A stretch of DNA of 64,000 nucleotides, from the NCBI RefSeq assembly GCF_017357425.1, contig NZ_CP014571.1, forward strand, positions 4,526,001 through 4,590,000. Reading direction: 5' to 3'. The DNA comes from Arthrobacter sp. D5-1. Its GTDB lineage: Bacteria; Actinomycetota; Actinomycetes; Actinomycetales; Micrococcaceae. Made by a program: the position numbers and the translations under genes. Below the pieces are notes generated by a model. That model worked only from the letters and a program-made list of their open reading frames with translations. It was not told where the DNA came from and made no database searches. Below are positions 11,989 to 19,430 of this stretch, one piece after another (positions within the stretch are counted from its first letter, which is position 1; each line of letters opens with the position of its first letter).

Positions 11989-12085
11989 GATTCTCCTGCA
12001 GGGGCACGTAGTAGTAGCCCCACCACAGTAGGAGTTCCATCCTTCGCATGACGCGAGTTGAACAATAGTGAACCCGACGCCAGGC

Positions 12086-12364
12086 CTACTGCATGAGGCG
12101 CTCGATGTCGGCAAAGCCCAGGCCCGAGGCAATCGCAAGGTCCGGAAGGCCTGCTCCCGCCGCCGTCGCGTTTCGCATGGCCCGTACCAGGCAATCCTCA
12201 GCCTGGTCCATTTCCCACTGCAACCCCTCCACCCGGGCGGCAGCTGTCCACACTTCGTCCAACACTCCGGTTCTTCGGGCCGTAGCGGCCTCGGTGATCA
12301 GTACTGGGGGCGTTACTTCGAGGGAAGCTCCACCTTGCGATTCCCTCACAACTACTGCAGTCAC
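12086..12364 (-). CDS. small HTH-like protein, paralogue of 61854-62255 product
   Basis: A 92-residue protein starting at GTG 12364 behind GGGAAGG. The N-terminus (MTAVVVRESQGGASLEV) and the C-terminus (AAGAGLPDLAIASGLGFADIERLM) resemble the product of 61854-62255. The C-terminal helix-turn-helix-like segment looks like the recognition part of a small DNA-binding fold. Both genes share CACATATAACTAG upstream. The function is unknown; a regulator or structural DNA-binding role is inferred. Confidence 0.6.
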   Translation of the reverse strand: MTAVVVRESQGGASLEVTPPVLITEAATARRTGVLDEVWTAAARVEGLQWEMDQAEDCLVRAMRNATAAGAGLPDLAIASGLGFADIERLMQ

Positions 12365-12400
12365 TTGGTGCCTTCCCGTGTAAGAATGTGTCTCGACAAA

Positions 12401-12413
12401 CTAGTTATATGTG
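12401..12413 (-). promoter_or_regulatory. shared upstream element CACATATAACTAG
   Basis: Read on the minus strand, CACATATAACTAG lies 37 bases before the start of the small HTH-like gene. The identical 13-mer precedes the paralogous gene (62294-62306). TATAAC could be the -10 hexamer. Confidence 0.5.
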
Positions 12414-12550
12414 AATCTAGCTAAATTGGCGAGTTGCGGTGGGGGTGATGCACATCACTAAAACTCGAGCGTGAGGAATCCCTGCATCTGCACGTCTTAT
12501 TCATGACGGCGCACAACAAGCGCTGCAACCAACGGACAGGAGCAATCGCC

Positions 12551-13051
12551 ATGACGATCCAGACGCACACCCCCGCAGATGTCCCGGCCAGGAACACCAC
12601 GGCGGGCGACAACCCCACAGCGGCCCATGACACCACCACTCCTGCACTGAATAAGGGCAAGGATGGCCGCGGGGCCACCACGGTTGCCGACGGCGTCGTC
12701 GCCAAAATCGCCGGCATCGCCATCCAGGAAATCCCGGGCGTCCACGCCCTCGGCGGCGGTGCTGCCCGCGCCATCGGCAACCTGCGCGAGAAGGTGGGCC
12801 AGAAGGACCTCACCCAGGGCGTCACCGTTGAAGTGGGCCAAACCCAGGTGGCCGTAGATGTCACCCTGGTTGTTGAGTACCCGCACCCGCTCCAGGAAGT
12901 AGCGGACAACGCCCGCGACGCCGTCTACACCGCCATCGAGGACCTGGTGGGCATGGAAGTGACCGAGGTCAACATCACCATCACCGACATCCACGTTCCT
13001 TCCGAGGATGAAGACGCAGACGACGCCGGGCGCGAGCCGAGGGTCGCATGA
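12551..13051 (+). CDS. Asp23/Gls24 family envelope stress protein
   Basis: A 166-residue protein read from ATG 12551 (ACAGGAG upstream). After a disordered Thr/Ala-rich N-terminus of about 45 residues comes a complete Asp23 domain. It runs from VADGVVAKIAGIAIQEIPGV through VTVEVGQTQVAVDVTLVVEY and LQEVADNARDAVYTAIEDLVGMEVTEVNITITDI. Asp23 proteins are abundant alkaline-shock proteins tethered to the membrane by AmaP. It heads a run of coupled genes at 12551-14829 encoding further Asp23-like and membrane-anchor proteins. Confidence 0.92.
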   Translation: MTIQTHTPADVPARNTTAGDNPTAAHDTTTPALNKGKDGRGATTVADGVVAKIAGIAIQEIPGVHALGGGAARAIGNLREKVGQKDLTQGVTVEVGQTQVAVDVTLVVEYPHPLQEVADNARDAVYTAIEDLVGMEVTEVNITITDIHVPSEDEDADDAGREPRVA

Positions 13052-13239
13052 ATCCCACCATCGCCGGCATAGCCATCGGAGCGGTCCTGGCCCTGGCAGG
13101 GTTGGCCTTTGGTTTCTGGGGCCTCCTGCTGACGGCACTGTTCATGGGCGCCGGGGCTGTGCTGGGCCGTTCCGCCGAGGGAAAGCTTGACCTGCGTGGC
13201 GTGCTGGATGCACTGCGGGGCAAGCGCTCCTCATCATGA
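13048..13239 (+). CDS. DUF2273-like small membrane protein
   Basis: A 63-residue protein with two closely spaced hydrophobic helices and a basic C-terminus (GRSAEGKLDLRGVLDALRGKR). The layout is that of DUF2273 partners encoded beside asp23 and amaP. It starts at an ATGA overlap with the Asp23 gene, so translation is coupled. It is likely a membrane component of the Asp23 assembly. Confidence 0.82.
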   Translation: MNPTIAGIAIGAVLALAGLAFGFWGLLLTALFMGAGAVLGRSAEGKLDLRGVLDALRGKRSSS

Positions 13240-13613
13240 ACCGCGCCGGAACGAACCGCCCCGGACATACCCGCATCACCCAGCACGCCCTCCGGAAAAC
13301 CCTGGAAGCCGTCACCGCCCAGGCGTTCCGGGTGGGAGCGGGAAACGTGGCAGCCGAGCTGGAGGACGATGCCGGCAAGCTCGGAGTAAGCCTCTCCGTC
13401 AAGCTGTCGCTCGCGCCGCTTCCGGGCCCGCGGAAAACCACAGCCACCGTCTTTCAGCAGGCTCAAACAGCACGAACACAACTGGTGTCCCGCGGCCTGG
13501 AGCTGACCGGGCTCGAGATCGGCCGGGTGGATATCCGCCTCGCCGGAGCCAAGGAGCAGCCCCGTACCAAGGAACACTCCACGGAACGACTCAAGGAAAG
13601 GAGCGTGCTGTGA
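13236..13613 (+). CDS. divergent Asp23-like protein
   Basis: A 125-residue soluble protein overlapping the preceding stop by 4 bases. The order helix (RKTLEAVTAQAF), strand (KLGVSLSVKLSLAP), helix (VFQQAQTARTQLVSRG) and strand (GLEIGRVDIRLAG) matches the Asp23 fold, although sequence identity to the first gene is low. The C-terminal tail is charged. It could pair with the other Asp23-like proteins; annotation is by fold pattern and operon position. Confidence 0.7.
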   Translation: MNRAGTNRPGHTRITQHALRKTLEAVTAQAFRVGAGNVAAELEDDAGKLGVSLSVKLSLAPLPGPRKTTATVFQQAQTARTQLVSRGLELTGLEIGRVDIRLAGAKEQPRTKEHSTERLKERSVL

Positions 13614-14191
13614 ACCAGGACCGAACCCAACGGCGGATGATCCGTCGGGAAACGCACTCTTCGCGGGCTCTTCCGTCCATCCTTTCCGCCTGCATCCTCA
13701 TGGTCGTCTTCCTCTGGCTCGCAGTGGAAGCCGTGCTGTGGATACTTAAGGACCAGGCGTTGCTGGCAAGCCCCGCACAGATGCTCCAGTGGCTCGTGGA
13801 CCTTCCGGTCACCACACTCCCGGTGGGAATGGCAGCTGCGGGAGCGGGCCTTGGAATTCTGGGCCTGCTGTTGCTGGGACTTGCCGTGGGCAGGGGACGG
13901 AAGGCCCGACGCTCCCTGGCGAGCCGGCGCGCCGCCGTGGTGGTGGACGACGACGTGATCGCCGCAGCTCTCTCCAACACCACCCGGCTCGCCGCCGGCC
14001 TGGCCCCCGGGCAGGTGACCACCACCGTCGGTGGACGGTCCGTACGCGTCCGGGTGCGTCCGACGTCGGGCGTTCCGTTGGACCTTGAGTCCGTGACAAC
14101 AGTGGTCGACGGCGAACTGGCCGCCTTTGCGCTGGACCGCCGGACCTCATCTGATGTCCAGGTATTGAACCAAGGAGCAGTGGGGCAATGA
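13610..14191 (+). CDS. DUF6286-like membrane protein with Asp23-like cytosolic domain
   Basis: The GTG at 13610 lies in a GTGA overlap and is preceded by AAGGAAAGGAG; the 193-residue product begins MNQDRTQRRMIRRE. Two membrane helices (about 22-46 and 66-90) are followed by a soluble domain, VDDDVIAAALSNTTRLAAGL then SVRVRVRPTSGVPLDLESVT. This resembles the C-terminal part of actinobacterial Asp23-operon membrane proteins (DUF6286). It probably anchors Asp23-type proteins at the membrane. Some upstream in-frame codons are open but overlap real genes. Confidence 0.75.
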   Translation: MNQDRTQRRMIRRETHSSRALPSILSACILMVVFLWLAVEAVLWILKDQALLASPAQMLQWLVDLPVTTLPVGMAAAGAGLGILGLLLLGLAVGRGRKARRSLASRRAAVVVDDDVIAAALSNTTRLAAGLAPGQVTTTVGGRSVRVRVRPTSGVPLDLESVTTVVDGELAAFALDRRTSSDVQVLNQGAVGQ

Positions 14192-14829
14192 GGCAAACAA
14201 ACCGTGCACTGAACCGTATCCTGCTTGCGCTCCTGGGCCTTGCACTGCTGGGAGCCGGTGGCGCAGTCATTGCAGCTGGCACCATGCCGGGAGCAGCGGA
14301 TACCTGGACAGCAGTGGCATCGTCCGTCCGCGAATCCGCCAGGAACCTCGTGGGCGCCGCACCTCTACCGGACCCCGTCCGGAGTTGGTGGCTGGTGGCA
14401 GGAATCGCCGTGTTGCTTGTGGGGATCGCCCTCAACGCAGCCTGGCTCGCCTCCCAAGGCGGAGGACGCACTCCTCGCCTCGCCGAGCAACTGGACGGGA
14501 CGGTCGCAGGCAACGGCCCCCCGGGGACAGGCGGGGCCCGGGGCCGGACAGTGGTGGATGTCAGCCTGGTCTCCAGAGCCCTCCGGGAAGCCCTAGGCGG
14601 GAACCGCGACGTCCTTGCCACGTCCGTTTCGGCGTGGGAGTCACGGCGGGGAACCGCCCTCCGGCTCCGCGTGGAAGCCCGCAAGGGAAGCTCGCCACGC
14701 GAACTTGCCGACACCGCCGAAGAACTCATCCGCGAAATAGATGCCCTGCTGGGACATCCCATCCCCGTCCTGATCCGAATTACCAGCGGCGCCCGAACCC
14801 AGGTGTCAGGATCCCGACGTGCACGTTAA
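14188..14829 (+). CDS. AmaP-like alkaline shock membrane anchor
   Basis: A 213-residue protein with a first hydrophobic helix at about 10-30 and a second at about 68-90. The cytosolic domain (VVDVSLVSRALREALGG, TALRLRVEARKGSS, IPVLIRITSG) repeats the Asp23-like strand-helix-strand pattern. The overlap of start and stop (ATGA) couples it to the preceding gene. AmaP in staphylococci recruits Asp23 to the membrane, and a similar role is inferred. It is the last gene of the first coupled block. Confidence 0.78.
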   Translation: MRQTNRALNRILLALLGLALLGAGGAVIAAGTMPGAADTWTAVASSVRESARNLVGAAPLPDPVRSWWLVAGIAVLLVGIALNAAWLASQGGGRTPRLAEQLDGTVAGNGPPGTGGARGRTVVDVSLVSRALREALGGNRDVLATSVSAWESRRGTALRLRVEARKGSSPRELADTAEELIREIDALLGHPIPVLIRITSGARTQVSGSRRAR

Positions 14830-14905
14830 CCGCTGGAACGCACTTCTCTCCACTCAAACCTGCGCGGCACCACAGAGCACGCGCACTGAAAGAAAAGGGA
14901 ACACC

Positions 14906-15136
14906 ATGGGAATCAACGACAAGATCAGCAACGCTGCCACCGAACACCTCGGCGCTGCCAAGGAAGGTGCCGGAAAACTGACCGGCGACCAGTCACTGGA
15001 GCGCGAAGGCCAGCACGATCAAGCCCAGGCAAAACTCCAGCAGGCAGGCGAGAAGGTCAAGGACGCTGCCGCCGACATCGGAGACAACATCAAAGATGCG
15101 GCCCGGAAACTCAAAGAGGGTTTCACCGGGAAGTAG
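14906..15136 (+). CDS. CsbD family general stress protein
   Basis: A 76-residue hydrophilic, Lys/Ala/Asp-rich protein starting MGINDKISNAATEHLGAAKE. The CsbD pattern is GKLTGDQSLEREGQHDQAQAKL followed by an amphipathic helical tail. CsbD proteins are induced by general stress and have no known catalytic activity. It sits between the Asp23/AmaP block and the ECF sigma gene with its own ribosome site, and is followed by a strong terminator. Confidence 0.92.
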   Translation: MGINDKISNAATEHLGAAKEGAGKLTGDQSLEREGQHDQAQAKLQQAGEKVKDAAADIGDNIKDAARKLKEGFTGK

Positions 15137-15145
15137 GCCCCTCCC

Positions 15146-15177
15146 GGGCCGGCCCCTTACCGATGGGGGGCCGGCCC
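15146..15177 (+). terminator. GC-rich terminator after csbD-like gene
   Basis: GGGCCGGCCCC (15146-15156) and GGGGCCGGCCC (15167-15177) pair perfectly around a 10-base loop, followed by a short CTTT. It separates the Asp23/CsbD block from the sigma-factor block. Confidence 0.75.
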
Positions 15178-15217
15178 CTTTCCACCACTAACCTCGACCC
15201 CACTGGGAAGGCAGAAC

Positions 15218-15802
15218 GTGACTGGTTCACCCGTGGCGCAGCACCAACTGGACCTCGTTCCGGATGCCTTGCTGGCCGGCCGGGCAGCAGACGGTGACAC
15301 GGCAGCTTTCGAAGCGCTTGCCCGTCGCCACGGCCCTCTGATGCGGGCCACCGCCCGCCGGTTGACCGGCAGCCTGGCGGACGCCGATGACGTGGTCCAG
15401 GAAACACTGGTGCAGGCCTGGAAACAGCTGGACACCCTCCGGGAGCCTGCCGCCGTCAAAGGCTGGCTGTTGAGGATCCTTGGCAGCCGCAGCATCGACC
15501 ACCTCAGGAAACGACGCCACCACATGGATCTGGACGACGTGGAAAACCAGCGCGATGACAGCCCCCGGACGAGAACCCAGGATCCGGAAAACAACGCAGT
15601 CAATGCCTCCCGGGTGGAAGCCCTCAAGGCCGCACTGGCCGCACTCCCCGAGGAACAACGACGCTGTTGGGTACTCAAGGAGTTCAATGACCAGAGCTAC
15701 GAAGAGATTGCGCTGACGTTGAACATCAGCCCAGCCAGTGTCCGCGGCCGGTTGGCCCGGGCACGGATCACGCTCGCACGCACCATGGAGGAATGGCGAT
15801 GA
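15218..15802 (+). CDS. ECF-type RNA polymerase sigma factor
   Basis: The GTG at 15218 is preceded by GGAAGG; 194 residues. Sigma region 2 spans about 28-95 (FEALARRHGPLMRATARRL, DADDVVQETLVQAWKQ, VKGWLLRILGSRSIDHLRKR). Region 4 spans about 130-187 (LAALPEEQRRCWVLKEFNDQ, YEEIALTLNISPASVRGRLARARITL). Only these two regions are present, as in ECF sigmas. Its stop overlaps the start of the zinc-finger anti-sigma gene, the usual sigma/anti-sigma arrangement. It probably drives stress-response genes; the target promoters were not identified. Confidence 0.93.
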   Translation: MTGSPVAQHQLDLVPDALLAGRAADGDTAAFEALARRHGPLMRATARRLTGSLADADDVVQETLVQAWKQLDTLREPAAVKGWLLRILGSRSIDHLRKRRHHMDLDDVENQRDDSPRTRTQDPENNAVNASRVEALKAALAALPEEQRRCWVLKEFNDQSYEEIALTLNISPASVRGRLARARITLARTMEEWR

Positions 15803-16434
15803 ACACCCCCAGCGACACCCTCGAATGCGGGCACAGCCTTGCGGATCTCAGTGCCTATCTGGACACGGGACAGATTGATGATCCCGCCCACCTGGAGAGG
15901 TGCCCCGAATGCCAGGCCGCGTTGGCCTCCTTGCGCCATCTCTCCCAACTCGGCGGAGATTTGCTCCGGTCCGATGTAGCAGACGCGGGCTCAGGCAATG
16001 ACGACTGGATGCAGTCCATCCTGGACAACCTGCGCCTGGAACTGCGGCCCGGACGGAGCATTCCCTTGCAGGCGGAACACCCGGATGACACGCTCTGGGA
16101 ATCCGAAGGAGCCATCTCCGCCCTGATCCGGTCCGTGGCCGATGCACTCCCTGGAACAGCCGCCGGCAAATGCCGGCTGCAGGGAGAGGTGACCACCATG
16201 GGAGCCCCCATCACCGTGGAGGTGGAAGTGGCCGTGGTGTACGGACACCCGATGGAAGAACGCGCAGCCACCCTCCGCGACGAGCTGGCAAGGACCCTGG
16301 CAGCCCAGACAGAACTGAACATCCAAGCCATCAATATCACCGTGACGGACGTCCTTGAGCCGCCGGCACCGCCGGTCCAGCCCACAGATACACCCGCCAC
16401 CACCGGACCGCTGAGCACGGAGGACCAGCCATGA
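15799..16434 (+). CDS. zinc-finger anti-sigma factor fused to Asp23-like domain
   Basis: The start at 15799 has GGAGGAA seven bases upstream; 211 residues. The N-terminus is a ZAS/zf-HC2 anti-sigma domain with the H-x3-C-x2-C zinc motif HLERCPEC and a preceding Cys-Gly-His. From about residue 95 an Asp23-like domain follows (GAISALIRSVADAL, ITVEVEVAVVYGHPMEERAATLRDEL, LNIQAINITVTDV). No membrane helix is present, unlike most sensory anti-sigmas. It presumably holds the ECF sigma factor and docks on the Asp23 membrane assembly, by inference. Confidence 0.85.
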   Translation: MNTPSDTLECGHSLADLSAYLDTGQIDDPAHLERCPECQAALASLRHLSQLGGDLLRSDVADAGSGNDDWMQSILDNLRLELRPGRSIPLQAEHPDDTLWESEGAISALIRSVADALPGTAAGKCRLQGEVTTMGAPITVEVEVAVVYGHPMEERAATLRDELARTLAAQTELNIQAINITVTDVLEPPAPPVQPTDTPATTGPLSTEDQP

Positions 16435-16793
16435 CGGAGTTTTTGAAAGCCGCGAACACTTCCCCTTCAGGCGGGTCGGCAGCCGCGTCAACCACCCTGG
16501 CTGAGGAACTGCTCGTGCTCGTCCAGGCGGTAGAAGGGGTCCACTCGGTCTATCCCGCGCAGCCGTTGTGGCAGTCCATAGCCGGCGCCGCCCTTGCCGC
16601 GGTCACCGGAGAGACACTTCCCCTGATCGGCCTGGCCGGGACCGCCGACACACTGGCAGTGAAAGTCAGGATTGGCGTGGATGCTTCCCGTCCTGCTCCG
16701 GCTGTTACGCGCGAAGCAGCCGCCGCGATCCGCAGGCACCTTCTCCCCCGGGCCGCCGTCGTCGAGATATCCGTGGTGAAGCTGGGCAGTTAG
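16431..16793 (+). CDS. Asp23-like small protein
   Basis: A 120-residue protein overlapping the previous stop by 4 bases. The pattern LLVLVQAVEGVHSVYPA, TLAVKVRIGVDASRPAPAV, TREAAAAIRRHL and AAVVEISVVKLG matches a compact Asp23-like fold. An Ala/Gly-rich insertion replaces the usual first loop. It is the final gene of the sigma/anti-sigma operon, so it may be the partner of the Asp23-like half of the anti-sigma factor. No catalytic residues are apparent. Confidence 0.68.
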   Translation: MTEFLKAANTSPSGGSAAASTTLAEELLVLVQAVEGVHSVYPAQPLWQSIAGAALAAVTGETLPLIGLAGTADTLAVKVRIGVDASRPAPAVTREAAAAIRRHLLPRAAVVEISVVKLGS

Positions 16794-16820
16794 CCGACGG
16801 GTCCACGCAGCCGGGTTCTG

Positions 16821-16852
16821 GTTCATAATGAACAAACTGAACACAAGTGAAC
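16821..16852. promoter_or_regulatory. operator pair before the DeoR/LacI hybrid regulator
   Basis: GTTCATAATGAAC (16821-16833) is a palindrome around a central base. GAACACAAGTGAAC (16839-16852) follows at once. Related GTTYACTTnTG sequences occur before the binding-protein gene (18000-18041). The promoter-proximal position suggests autoregulation. Confidence 0.6.
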
Positions 16853-16871
16853 TTGATAGGCGGACACCTGC

Positions 16872-17975
16872 ATGCTGACCGAGGATCGTCAACAGCTCAT
16901 CCTGAGGGAACTCGCCCTGAACGGTTCCCTCAATGCCAGCGAATTCGCGGCGAAACTGGGCACCTCGGGGATGACCGTGCGGCGGGACCTCGCAGTGCTC
17001 GCTGAACAGGGCCTGCTCGAACGGGTCCACGGCGGCGCCATCCCGGTGGGCGGCAAGCCGTCGGCAGGACCCGCTACGCAGCCCTCCACGTCCTGGCGGC
17101 CTGGCGGGAGGCGGCCTTTGGCCACCATCGGGATGATCGTGCCGTCGGCGTCGTACTATTTCCCGGGCGTCATTCGCGGCGCCGAAGCCGCCGCGCAGGA
17201 AGCAGGCGTCCGCTTGGTGCTGGGCGTCACCAACTATTCAGACGCGGAAGAGCGGCGGCAGCTGCGGCGGCTCTACGAACACGGCGTGGATGGAATCCTC
17301 ATTACGCCCAGCGGGCAATCGTTGGCAGGTACCGAAACACTGGACCTGCTGGCCGAGGCAGAGGTGCCGGTGGTAGTGGTGGAACGGTCTATCGACGACG
17401 CCTTGGACCACGGCCGGCTCGAAGCCGTGCGGAGCGACCATGTCCGCGGCTCGGAAATCGCCGTGAACCACTTGTTGGGCCTCGGCCACCGGAAAATCGC
17501 CATTTGCCTCCGTGAAAACAGCCCCACCGCCCCGCAACTCATCGATGGCTTCCACCTGGCCATGCACCGTGCCGGACATGCCCGCGACGACTCGATGGTG
17601 CGTGCCATGTCCCGCGCCCAAAACGATCCCCAGGCCCACCGTGAACTGGTGGACCGGATCCTGGATTGGTGCGGATCGGCGGAGGTGACGGCCGCTGTTG
17701 TCCACACCGACGAGGACGCGCTCCAGTTCGTCAGTGCCTGCCTGGAACGGCAGATCCGCGTGCCGGAGGACTTCGCTATCGTTTCTTACGACGACGAGAT
17801 CGCCGCCCTCGGCGCCGTCCCGCTTACCGCTGTGGCACCGCCAAAATACGACGTCGGCCACCAGGCTTTGGTGATGTGCCTGAGCCGCATCGGGGCGCGG
17901 CGCGGAAGCACGTCCGCGCTGCAACGGGTGAACCTGTCCCCGGCGCTGGAAGTGCGCGGCTCCACGCAGGTGTAG
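16872..17975 (+). CDS. hybrid regulator: DeoR-type HTH with LacI-type sugar-binding domain
   Basis: A 367-residue regulator. Residues 1-60 are a DeoR winged helix (EDRQQLILRELALNGSLNAS, GTSGMTVRRDLAVLAEQGLL, ERVHGGAIPV). From about 80 on it has the periplasmic-binding-protein-like effector domain of LacI repressors (ATIGMIVPSASYYFPGVIRG, GVDGILITPSG, VPVVVVERSIDD, DFAIVSYDDEIAAL). True DeoR proteins carry a sugar-phosphate-isomerase-like domain instead, so this is a domain shuffle. It lies directly before the ABC transporter and shares operator sequences with it, so it likely responds to the transported sugar. Confidence 0.88.
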   Translation: MLTEDRQQLILRELALNGSLNASEFAAKLGTSGMTVRRDLAVLAEQGLLERVHGGAIPVGGKPSAGPATQPSTSWRPGGRRPLATIGMIVPSASYYFPGVIRGAEAAAQEAGVRLVLGVTNYSDAEERRQLRRLYEHGVDGILITPSGQSLAGTETLDLLAEAEVPVVVVERSIDDALDHGRLEAVRSDHVRGSEIAVNHLLGLGHRKIAICLRENSPTAPQLIDGFHLAMHRAGHARDDSMVRAMSRAQNDPQAHRELVDRILDWCGSAEVTAAVVHTDEDALQFVSACLERQIRVPEDFAIVSYDDEIAALGAVPLTAVAPPKYDVGHQALVMCLSRIGARRGSTSALQRVNLSPALEVRGSTQV

Positions 17976-18116: not shown

Positions 18117-19430
18117 ATGAAGCGTCGCCAGCTTCTGCTTGGAGCAGCCAGCCTCATGGCCAGCGCTGCACTCGTCACCGGCTGTGGCAGCACCCCCACC
18201 GCCACGCCAGCCCCAACCCCGGTGGAAGACCCCAGCGGTAACATCACGTTCTGGTCCTCCATGGCCGGTATGGACAAGGTGGCGGAAGCGTTCAACGCCA
18301 GCCAGGACAAGATCAAAGTCACGTTTGAAACCATCCCCAACGGCGGAGCCGGCGGTTATGCCAAGCTCTCCACTGCCATCACCGCAGGCAACGGCCCGGA
18401 CGTCGCCACCATCGAATATCCGCAGTTGCCCCAATTTGTCAGCAACGGCCAGCTACAGCCTCTTGACGGCTACATCAACAAGGCTGAAACCGTGGACAAA
18501 CTCACGGATGAAACCAAGGCCCTGGTGCAGTTTGGCGAGCAGACCTACGCACTCCCCTACGATGCCGCGCCGATGATCATGTGGTACCGCAAGGACATGC
18601 TGGACAAGGCCGGAGTCTCCACTCCCAAGACCTGGCAGGAGTTCGAGGAGGCCGGTAAGAAGCTCAAGGCCGTTGCCCCCGAAGCGCATTTGGCCAGCTT
18701 CAACCCGAACGAGGCTGCGCTGACTGCTGCGCTGTCCTGGCAGGCGGGCGGCAAGTGGTTCGGCACCGAAGGCGACAGCTGGAAGGTGGGTGTTAACGAC
18801 GAAGCCACCCGGAAAGTCGCCACGTACTGGCAGAAGCTTATCGACCAGAAGATCGTCAAAGTCCAGCAGTCCTTCAGTGACGAATGGTCCGCAGACCTGG
18901 CGAGCGGCGCCGTCGTCGGAGTCCTGGGTGCCAACTGGAGCGCCACCGGTATCCAGAAGCGGACGGAGGCCAGCGGCCAAAAGGGTCAGTGGATCGCTGC
19001 CGAGGTGCCCAACTGGGGCACTCCGGCGGACGCGTTCTACGGCGGCTCCAGCTTCAACATCACCAAGAGCAGCAAGAATCCGGCCGCCGCGGCGAAATTC
19101 ATCGAGTTCCTTGCCACCAGCAAAGAGGCCATCTCTGCCCGCGGCAACACCGGCTCTGCGTTCCTTGCCTACCCGGGCCTGACCCCCGTGGCGCAGAAGG
19201 CCTTCGATGCCAGCTACTTCGGCAACGACATCTACGAGGTCTTCGACAAGGCATATTCCACCATCACGCCGGGCTGGCAGTGGGGTCCCAACTGGGACAT
19301 CACCAACACCGCGCTCAAGGACGCCTACGGCACGCTGACCAGCGGCGGCAAGGTCCTGGACGCCGTCGATACCGCCCAGGACGCCACAGTGGCCGGGCTC
19401 AAGCAGAACGGCCTCTCCGTCAAGGAGTAG
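18117..19430 (+). CDS. ABC transporter sugar-binding lipoprotein
   Basis: A 437-residue extracellular solute-binding protein (SBP family 1). A basic N-terminus and hydrophobic stretch end in the lipobox LVTGC with the modified Cys at residue 23, followed by a Thr/Pro linker. The fold is recognisable from NITFWSSMAGMDKVAEAFN, GPDVATIEYPQLPQFV, ALPYDAAPMIMWYRKDML and TWQEFEEAGKKLKA. It captures a sugar or oligosaccharide outside the membrane for the two permeases encoded next. The ligand is not predictable. AAAGGAG precedes the start. Confidence 0.93.
   Translation: MKRRQLLLGAASLMASAALVTGCGSTPTATPAPTPVEDPSGNITFWSSMAGMDKVAEAFNASQDKIKVTFETIPNGGAGGYAKLSTAITAGNGPDVATIEYPQLPQFVSNGQLQPLDGYINKAETVDKLTDETKALVQFGEQTYALPYDAAPMIMWYRKDMLDKAGVSTPKTWQEFEEAGKKLKAVAPEAHLASFNPNEAALTAALSWQAGGKWFGTEGDSWKVGVNDEATRKVATYWQKLIDQKIVKVQQSFSDEWSADLASGAVVGVLGANWSATGIQKRTEASGQKGQWIAAEVPNWGTPADAFYGGSSFNITKSSKNPAAAAKFIEFLATSKEAISARGNTGSAFLAYPGLTPVAQKAFDASYFGNDIYEVFDKAYSTITPGWQWGPNWDITNTALKDAYGTLTSGGKVLDAVDTAQDATVAGLKQNGLSVKE

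Follow-up and report, generated by a model that had tools for sequence, protein, structure and literature searches.

The genome of the soil bacterium Arthrobacter sp. D5-1 contains a group of nine genes that encode Asp23-type proteins, membrane proteins, a CsbD-like stress protein, and an extracytoplasmic function (ECF) sigma factor followed by a likely anti-sigma factor, which itself ends in an Asp23 domain. In this paper, we have analysed this locus, which occupies positions 12551-16793 of the window, i.e. the whole stretch of 64,000 nucleotides under study (contig NZ_CP014571.1, positions 4,526,001 to 4,590,000); coordinates without a locus prefix refer to the window, and papers named by PMC number are cited from excerpts. 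An initial annotation, made from the sequence alone, had described here a multi-member Asp23 system under an ECF sigma factor. All nine genes lie where it placed them, and they fall, as it had claimed, into two coupled blocks, asp23-DUF2273-aspB-tmD-amaP and, beyond csbD, ECF sigma-anti-aspC. The six within-block joins (asp23/DUF2273, DUF2273/aspB, aspB/tmD, tmD/amaP, ecf/anti and anti/aspC) are all 4-base overlaps, and csbD stands between the blocks, overlapping neither neighbour. The features are as follows.

12445..12458, + strand: CRP/GlxR-like palindrome GTGATGCACATCAC, whose first base lies 25 nt before the ECF-type promoter element
12470..12499, + strand: predicted ECF sigma promoter CGTGAGGAAT-N13-CGTCTTA, a conserved motif
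12551..13051, + strand: asp23, Asp23-family protein of 166 aa (PF03780, E 1.9e-26, 93.1 bits), no hydrophobic segment
13048..13239, + strand: DUF2273 small membrane protein of 63 aa (PF10031, E 4.1e-06), hydrophobic stretch 1-40
13236..13613, + strand: aspB, soluble protein of 125 aa, the second with an Asp23 domain (96.8% to Asp23 by profile, <=0.6% in shuffled controls)
13610..14191, + strand: tmD, membrane protein with a putative divergent Asp23-like C-terminal domain (by profile), 193 aa, hydrophobic segments 17-48 and 69-96
14188..14829, + strand: amaP-like membrane anchor with a putative divergent Asp23-like C-terminal domain (by profile and AlphaFold2), 213 aa, hydrophobic segments 7-34 and 63-91
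14906..15136, + strand: csbD, CsbD-like stress protein of 76 aa (PF05532, E 1e-14)
15146..15177, + strand: hairpin downstream of csbD (fold -33.3 kcal/mol, z -2.64), which may be a terminator but has no U-tract
15218..15802, + strand: ECF sigma factor of 194 aa (PF04542, E 1.5e-18; PF08281, E 5.9e-14)
15799..16434, + strand: likely anti-sigma factor of 211 aa with N-terminal ZAS zinc motif (ligands C10, H31, C35, C38) and C-terminal Asp23 domain (Asp23 profile 97.5%)
16431..16793, + strand: aspC, soluble protein of 120 aa, the third Asp23-like one, encoded last of three in the sigma block (profile 92.3% to anti, 74.7% to Asp23)

The product of 15218 shows sigma regions 2 and 4 above the Pfam cut-off and no listed region 3 family, which places it among the ECF sigma factors. 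By a hydropathy scan, the source of all membrane segments given here, 13048 has one hydrophobic segment, 13610 and 14188 have two apiece, and the remaining genes have none. The initial annotation had also seen a strong terminator after csbD; the hairpin is indeed strong, but it has no U-tract and is missing from the output of the terminator scan. Downstream of the locus, 16872-17975 encodes a regulator in which a DeoR-type helix-turn-helix is joined to a LacI-type sugar-binding domain (Pfam), and the next open reading frame, 18117-19430, resembles by eye the binding protein of a sugar ABC transporter.

Asp23-type domains of the locus

A Pfam scan placed above the cut-off the products of 12551 (PF03780) and 13048 (DUF2273) and, at the borderline, that of 15793/15799, which matched the C-terminal half of the PF03780 profile only, with 28.3 bits against a cut-off of 28. 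The products of 13236, 13610, 14188 and 16431 matched no Pfam family above cut-off, and their relation to Asp23 is one of profile comparison. In this comparison, families of 39 to 45 rows built from the loci described below were used, each pair was shuffled ten times by column, and the families of sigma and DUF2273 served as negative controls; the shuffled pairs all stayed at or below 2.4%, and the real pairs with sigma or DUF2273 at or below 1.4%. The asp23, aspB and anti families matched one another at 96.8% (asp23-aspB), 97.5% (asp23-anti) and 96.8% (aspB-anti), and they matched aspC at 92.3% (anti), 74.7% (asp23) and 60.0% (aspB). The two membrane protein families, tmD and amaP, matched each other at 96.7%, with marginal matches to soluble families in aspB-tmD (58.2%), tmD-anti (58.2%) and amaP-anti (58.5%). 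The low pairs tmD-aspC (13.9%), aspB-amaP (5.8%) and amaP-aspC (5.5%), together with asp23-amaP (2.3%) and asp23-tmD (0.4%), which are at the control level, count against an Asp23 relation of both membrane proteins. Judged by these percentages against the shuffles and controls, four products (12551, 13236, 15799 and 16431) carry clear Asp23-type domains, while 13610 and 14188 are related to each other and only marginally to the remaining Asp23-type products.

AlphaFold2 models were obtained for 16431 (mean pLDDT, the predicted local distance difference test score, 76.8) and 14188 (80.9). The C-terminal part of the latter is modelled in the order alpha-beta-beta-alpha-beta, and the former as alpha-beta-(alpha)-beta-beta-alpha-beta, in which an extra helix and a short strand are inserted relative to 14188; the core alpha-beta-beta-alpha-beta order is thus common to the two models, which were compared with each other. 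The layout of 14188, i.e. hydrophobic segments followed by an alpha-beta tail, is similar to that of AmaP, and its match to the NCBIfam AmaP model (NF033218) reaches 16.6 bits over residues 6-33 only, below the equivalog cut-off of 55. The initial annotation had made its idea of several Asp23 proteins depend on the fold of the products of 13236, 13610, 14188 and 16431. The first and the last of these have the domain by profile; 14188 is weak by profile and has in addition the predicted secondary-structure order, and 13610 is placed by profile only, with 58.2% to both aspB and anti and with 96.7% to amaP. The claim that several different Asp23-type domains are made together with membrane partners has thus held up, with four clear and two marginal members.

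Fused relatives bear on whether these proteins act together. In two loci aspB and tmD are joined in one reading frame (L085:7918-9243 and L086:7212-9593), and in three others (L140, L141 and L143) a single protein combines an AspC-like domain with an Asp23 domain of the anti type (domain E between 4.5e-6 and 1.6e-5); the same fusion is weak in L142 (domain E 0.0043), and L144 has no match to the aspC profile. Because of these fusions, a heteromeric assembly of Asp23-type proteins, as the initial annotation had imagined it, is plausible.

The anti-sigma factor and the conservation of its locus

The N-terminal 40 residues of 15799 hold C10, H31, C35 and C38, the pattern of the zinc-associated anti-sigma (ZAS) domain, i.e. 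H-x3-C-x2-C with an upstream cysteine, and the gene directly follows the ECF sigma gene, which it overlaps. C35 and C38 are present in all of 45 relatives, C10 in 42 and H31 in 41; 38 relatives have the full set of four ligands. The protein has no hydrophobic segment, and the Pfam zf-HC2 model stays below its cut-off (9.1 vs 22.2 bits). Searched against PDB sequences, its profile gave seven weak rows at E <=1, in which unrelated proteins stand beside the anti-sigma factors DdvA (E 0.016) and RsiW (E 0.52). Because the zinc ligands are kept and form an RsrA-like set, and in view of these PDB rows, 15799 is likely a soluble ZAS-type anti-sigma factor fused to a C-terminal Asp23 domain, and is predicted to bind and inhibit the sigma factor. 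The initial annotation had rightly taken it for an Asp23-type protein, but had missed the ZAS domain and hence the likely anti-sigma role. The closest named locus found is that of P. nitroguajacolicus, with an anti-sigma protein 95% identical, and the chromosome studied here is Paenarthrobacter-like.

The zinc ligands of RsrA are Cys11, His37, Cys41 and Cys44, and its trigger disulfide is Cys11-Cys44 (excerpt of PMC4960319). The resemblance of the four-ligand set raises an alternative in which 15799 works as a redox switch: under thiol stress, C10 and C38 would form a disulfide and zinc would be released, with the Asp23 domain as no more than a scaffold or localiser and the layer as one output of an oxidative response. 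Both cysteines of the CxxC are indeed invariant (45/45), and C10 is retained even in four relatives in which H31 is replaced by Tyr. ZAS proteins, however, need not be redox sensors, C10 is lost in 3/45 relatives, the cysteines are mostly gone in L138, and a thiol-repair family was matched by none of the nine genes in the Pfam and NCBIfam scans. We regard this alternative as unlikely, but as a serious competitor.

The gene order was mapped in 47 stretches, namely L054-L098, L004 and the window slice, which include close relatives (L072/L073) and two loci of one genome (G035, G113). Since all but L004 and the window were gathered through the anti-sigma gene, the counts are conditional on that gene; the gene starts of relatives were chosen near the preceding stop, which biases towards overlap, so overlaps are given for the window only. 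Both the DUF2273 block and ecf-anti are present in 41/47 stretches, 25 times on the same strand, as here, and 16 times on opposite strands; four further stretches have ecf-anti without the DUF2273 block, and a third gene follows anti in 42/45. Moreover, the D5-1 genome has the five-gene block asp23-DUF2273-aspB-tmD-amaP once more, at L004:5834-8115 (contig 1, about 560.8 kb); there too a csbD-like gene follows, one rich in repeated csbD-like segments (L004:5834-8550 overall). This recurrence and the joint presence of both blocks in 41/47 stretches argue that the arrangement is not due to chance.

Unlike the window, the L004 block shows no ecf-anti-aspC match in the 12 kb read and no promoter motif. 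Likewise, in L140-L144 a relative of the anti gene is kept beside asp23, but the 3.4 kb read there gave neither a ZAS nor an ecf match, so that a sigma factor is not needed for the Asp23 parts to occur. These sigma-less loci would suit a reading in which the Asp23 genes form a common envelope operon, constitutively expressed and accompanied by paralogues, and in which the sigma/anti-sigma pair and the Asp23 fusion play no part in its regulation. Such a reading is very improbable in our view, given that the ecf-anti order and the ZAS motif are conserved and that the anti-sigma gene is associated with the promoter motif described below.

In the wider family, the anti-sigma profile scored above 60 bits in 41 of 120 genomes (at most 26 candidates scored per genome); in the phylum, it was found at E 1e-12 in 12 of 296 genomes including that of D5-1 (at most 10 scored per genome), some of them being sigma-less relatives. 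In four of the 41 family genomes (G002, G008, G042 and G107) the match starts at profile position 40 or later, so that the zinc part is unconfirmed there.

Promoter motif and CRP-like site upstream of asp23

The upstream regions of the asp23 genes share a motif of the form CGTGASGWWT, 12 or 13 bases, CGTCYT. A loose version is found in 26/42 asp23 upstreams (shuffle expectation 0.02) vs 0/45 ecf upstreams, and a second form in 23/42 vs 0/45; with a laxer -10 element, possible copies also appear near ecf in L134, L135 and L137. A stricter exact pattern gave 27 matches in 22 of the 120 family genomes, compared with two for a reversed control pattern; 21 of the 27 sit just upstream of an asp23 gene, and the pattern occurs once in the D5-1 genome. 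Three motif-bearing asp23 genes lie away from the ecf-anti pair: in G056 (contig 2) and G115 (contig 12) they are on another contig than the pair, and in G106 the ecf-anti-aspC genes (L068) are about 155 kb from the motif-bearing asp23 operon (L110).

The exact motif is also associated with the presence of the anti-sigma gene. Taking a match at E 1e-20 as presence of asp23, 78 genomes have the gene, 39 together with anti-sigma and 39 alone, and the motif stands at asp23 in 17/39 of the former vs 0/39 of the latter (Fisher p 1.6e-6, uncorrected for kinship); the 17 all belong to the 41 anti-sigma genomes. When the four incomplete anti-sigma matches, of which G008 and G107 are among the 17, were moved out, the counts became 15/35 vs 2/43 (p 5.6e-5, likewise uncorrected). 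The element at 12470-12499 is therefore best described as a candidate, and probable, target promoter of the ECF sigma factor 15218, and the sigma-factor control of the asp23 operon claimed by the initial annotation is accordingly rated probable from the conserved motif.

Further upstream, at 12445, there is a palindrome GTGA-N6-TCAC, which, by the known consensus, is a putative CRP or GlxR site. It occurs upstream of asp23 in 20/42 loci (shuffle expectation 0.26) and upstream of ecf in 2/45 (expectation 0.16), its spacing to the promoter is 25 nt in 17 of the 20 loci, 24 in two and 22 in one, and all 20 loci have both blocks on one strand. The genome encodes one strong match to a CRP-type regulator (E 2.0e-18).

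This fixed spacing and the regulator of the genome's own, along with the absence of the loose motif from 16/42 loci, would be expected if the promoter at 12470 were read mainly by a different sigma factor (the housekeeping one or a further ECF factor) and were regulated chiefly by CRP, the sigma block and the asp23 operon being conserved neighbours. Against this, the exact motif is absent at asp23 in 39/39 genomes counted without anti-sigma (41/43 on the stricter count) and present at asp23 genes far from an ecf gene, and no sigma-70-type promoter was found in 12000-17000, though the shuffles also averaged just 0.5. We consider control mainly by another sigma factor quite unlikely.

Proposed mechanism and comparison with known systems

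Taken together, we propose, with a probability of about 0.6, that the whole locus is a self-regulating Asp23 membrane-layer system, in which the anti-sigma factor reads the layer through its own Asp23 domain. The ECF sigma factor would transcribe the asp23 operon from 12470-12499, probably helped by a CRP-like activator at 12445. The Asp23/AspB layer would be held under the membrane by AmaP, TmD and DUF2273, and the anti-sigma factor would hold the sigma factor by its N-terminal zinc domain, while its C-terminal Asp23 domain, together with AspC, would tie it to the layer. When the layer or the membrane is disturbed, this contact may change, so that the sigma factor is freed and more layer is made; the locus thus suggests that the state of a protein layer controls the amount of layer made. 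Gene order, domain make-up, zinc ligands, the conservation of the promoter motif and its co-occurrence with the anti-sigma gene are read directly from the sequence; from them we infer the binding of sigma by anti-sigma, the recognition of the promoter by sigma, the docking of the anti-sigma factor in the layer, and the signal. Envelope stress, the signal named by the initial annotation, may be the one; layer integrity, membrane state, and zinc or thiol state are candidate inputs. A loop of this kind is favoured because of the gene coupling, the fusions and the motif at remote asp23 genes. In sum, the initial interpretation is borne out in part; it had missed the ZAS domain, the promoter and the CRP-like site.

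Several observations weigh against such a loop. The zinc ligands are incomplete in 7/45 relatives and mostly lost in L138 (alignment read by eye), L140-L144 lack ZAS and ecf matches as described above, and G033 and G059 have the sigma block but no asp23 match at E 1e-20. The loose motif is missing from 16/42 asp23 upstreams, the exact one from asp23 in 22/39 genomes with both genes, and 6/27 exact matches are not at asp23; furthermore, the anti-sigma absences, resting on at most 26 candidates scored per genome, are not airtight. In addition, the excerpt of PMC9769785 reports that, following ethanol shock, an Asp23 gene of S. venezuelae decreases at each of the three time points.

A tentative extension of the proposal, which we would not count on, is that the layer includes the anti-sigma factor among its subunits, the Asp23 domain of this factor filling or capping Asp23/AspB/AspC positions, so that the completeness of the lining is measured by the amount of anti-sigma factor absorbed and more lining is made to match. 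If true, the cell would have an envelope sensor in the cytoplasm whose input is a protein coat and not a transmembrane signal.

Three known systems may be compared with this locus. Staphylococcal Asp23, located under the membrane and able to form filaments in vitro, also comes with a membrane anchor, AmaP (excerpt of PMC6954212); in contrast, the present locus has not one but several different domains of the Asp23 type, its anchor-like membrane proteins number two, and an ECF sigma/anti-sigma pair is encoded next to them. According to the same study, what Asp23 does at the molecular level is still unclear, and the joining of an Asp23 domain to a likely sigma inhibitor, with a named candidate promoter, turns what Asp23 senses or reports into a testable question. 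RsrA of the RsrA-SigR pair is, like 15799, a soluble ZAS anti-sigma factor with the ligand pattern C, H-x3-C-x2-C (excerpt of PMC4960319), whereas 15799 has a C-terminal Asp23 domain and an envelope operon as its predicted target. The excerpted review PMC8999054 describes the groups ECF286 and ECF292, whose sigma factors adjoin soluble Asp23-family proteins predicted, without experimental data, as anti-sigma factors, and which are listed separately from the ZAS-regulated groups ECF270 and ECF271. Unlike those groups as described there, the Asp23 protein here also has a ZAS zinc domain, with aspC as a third gene and a candidate target promoter, and the locus also offers a candidate mechanism for the Asp23-family anti-sigma factors of that review.

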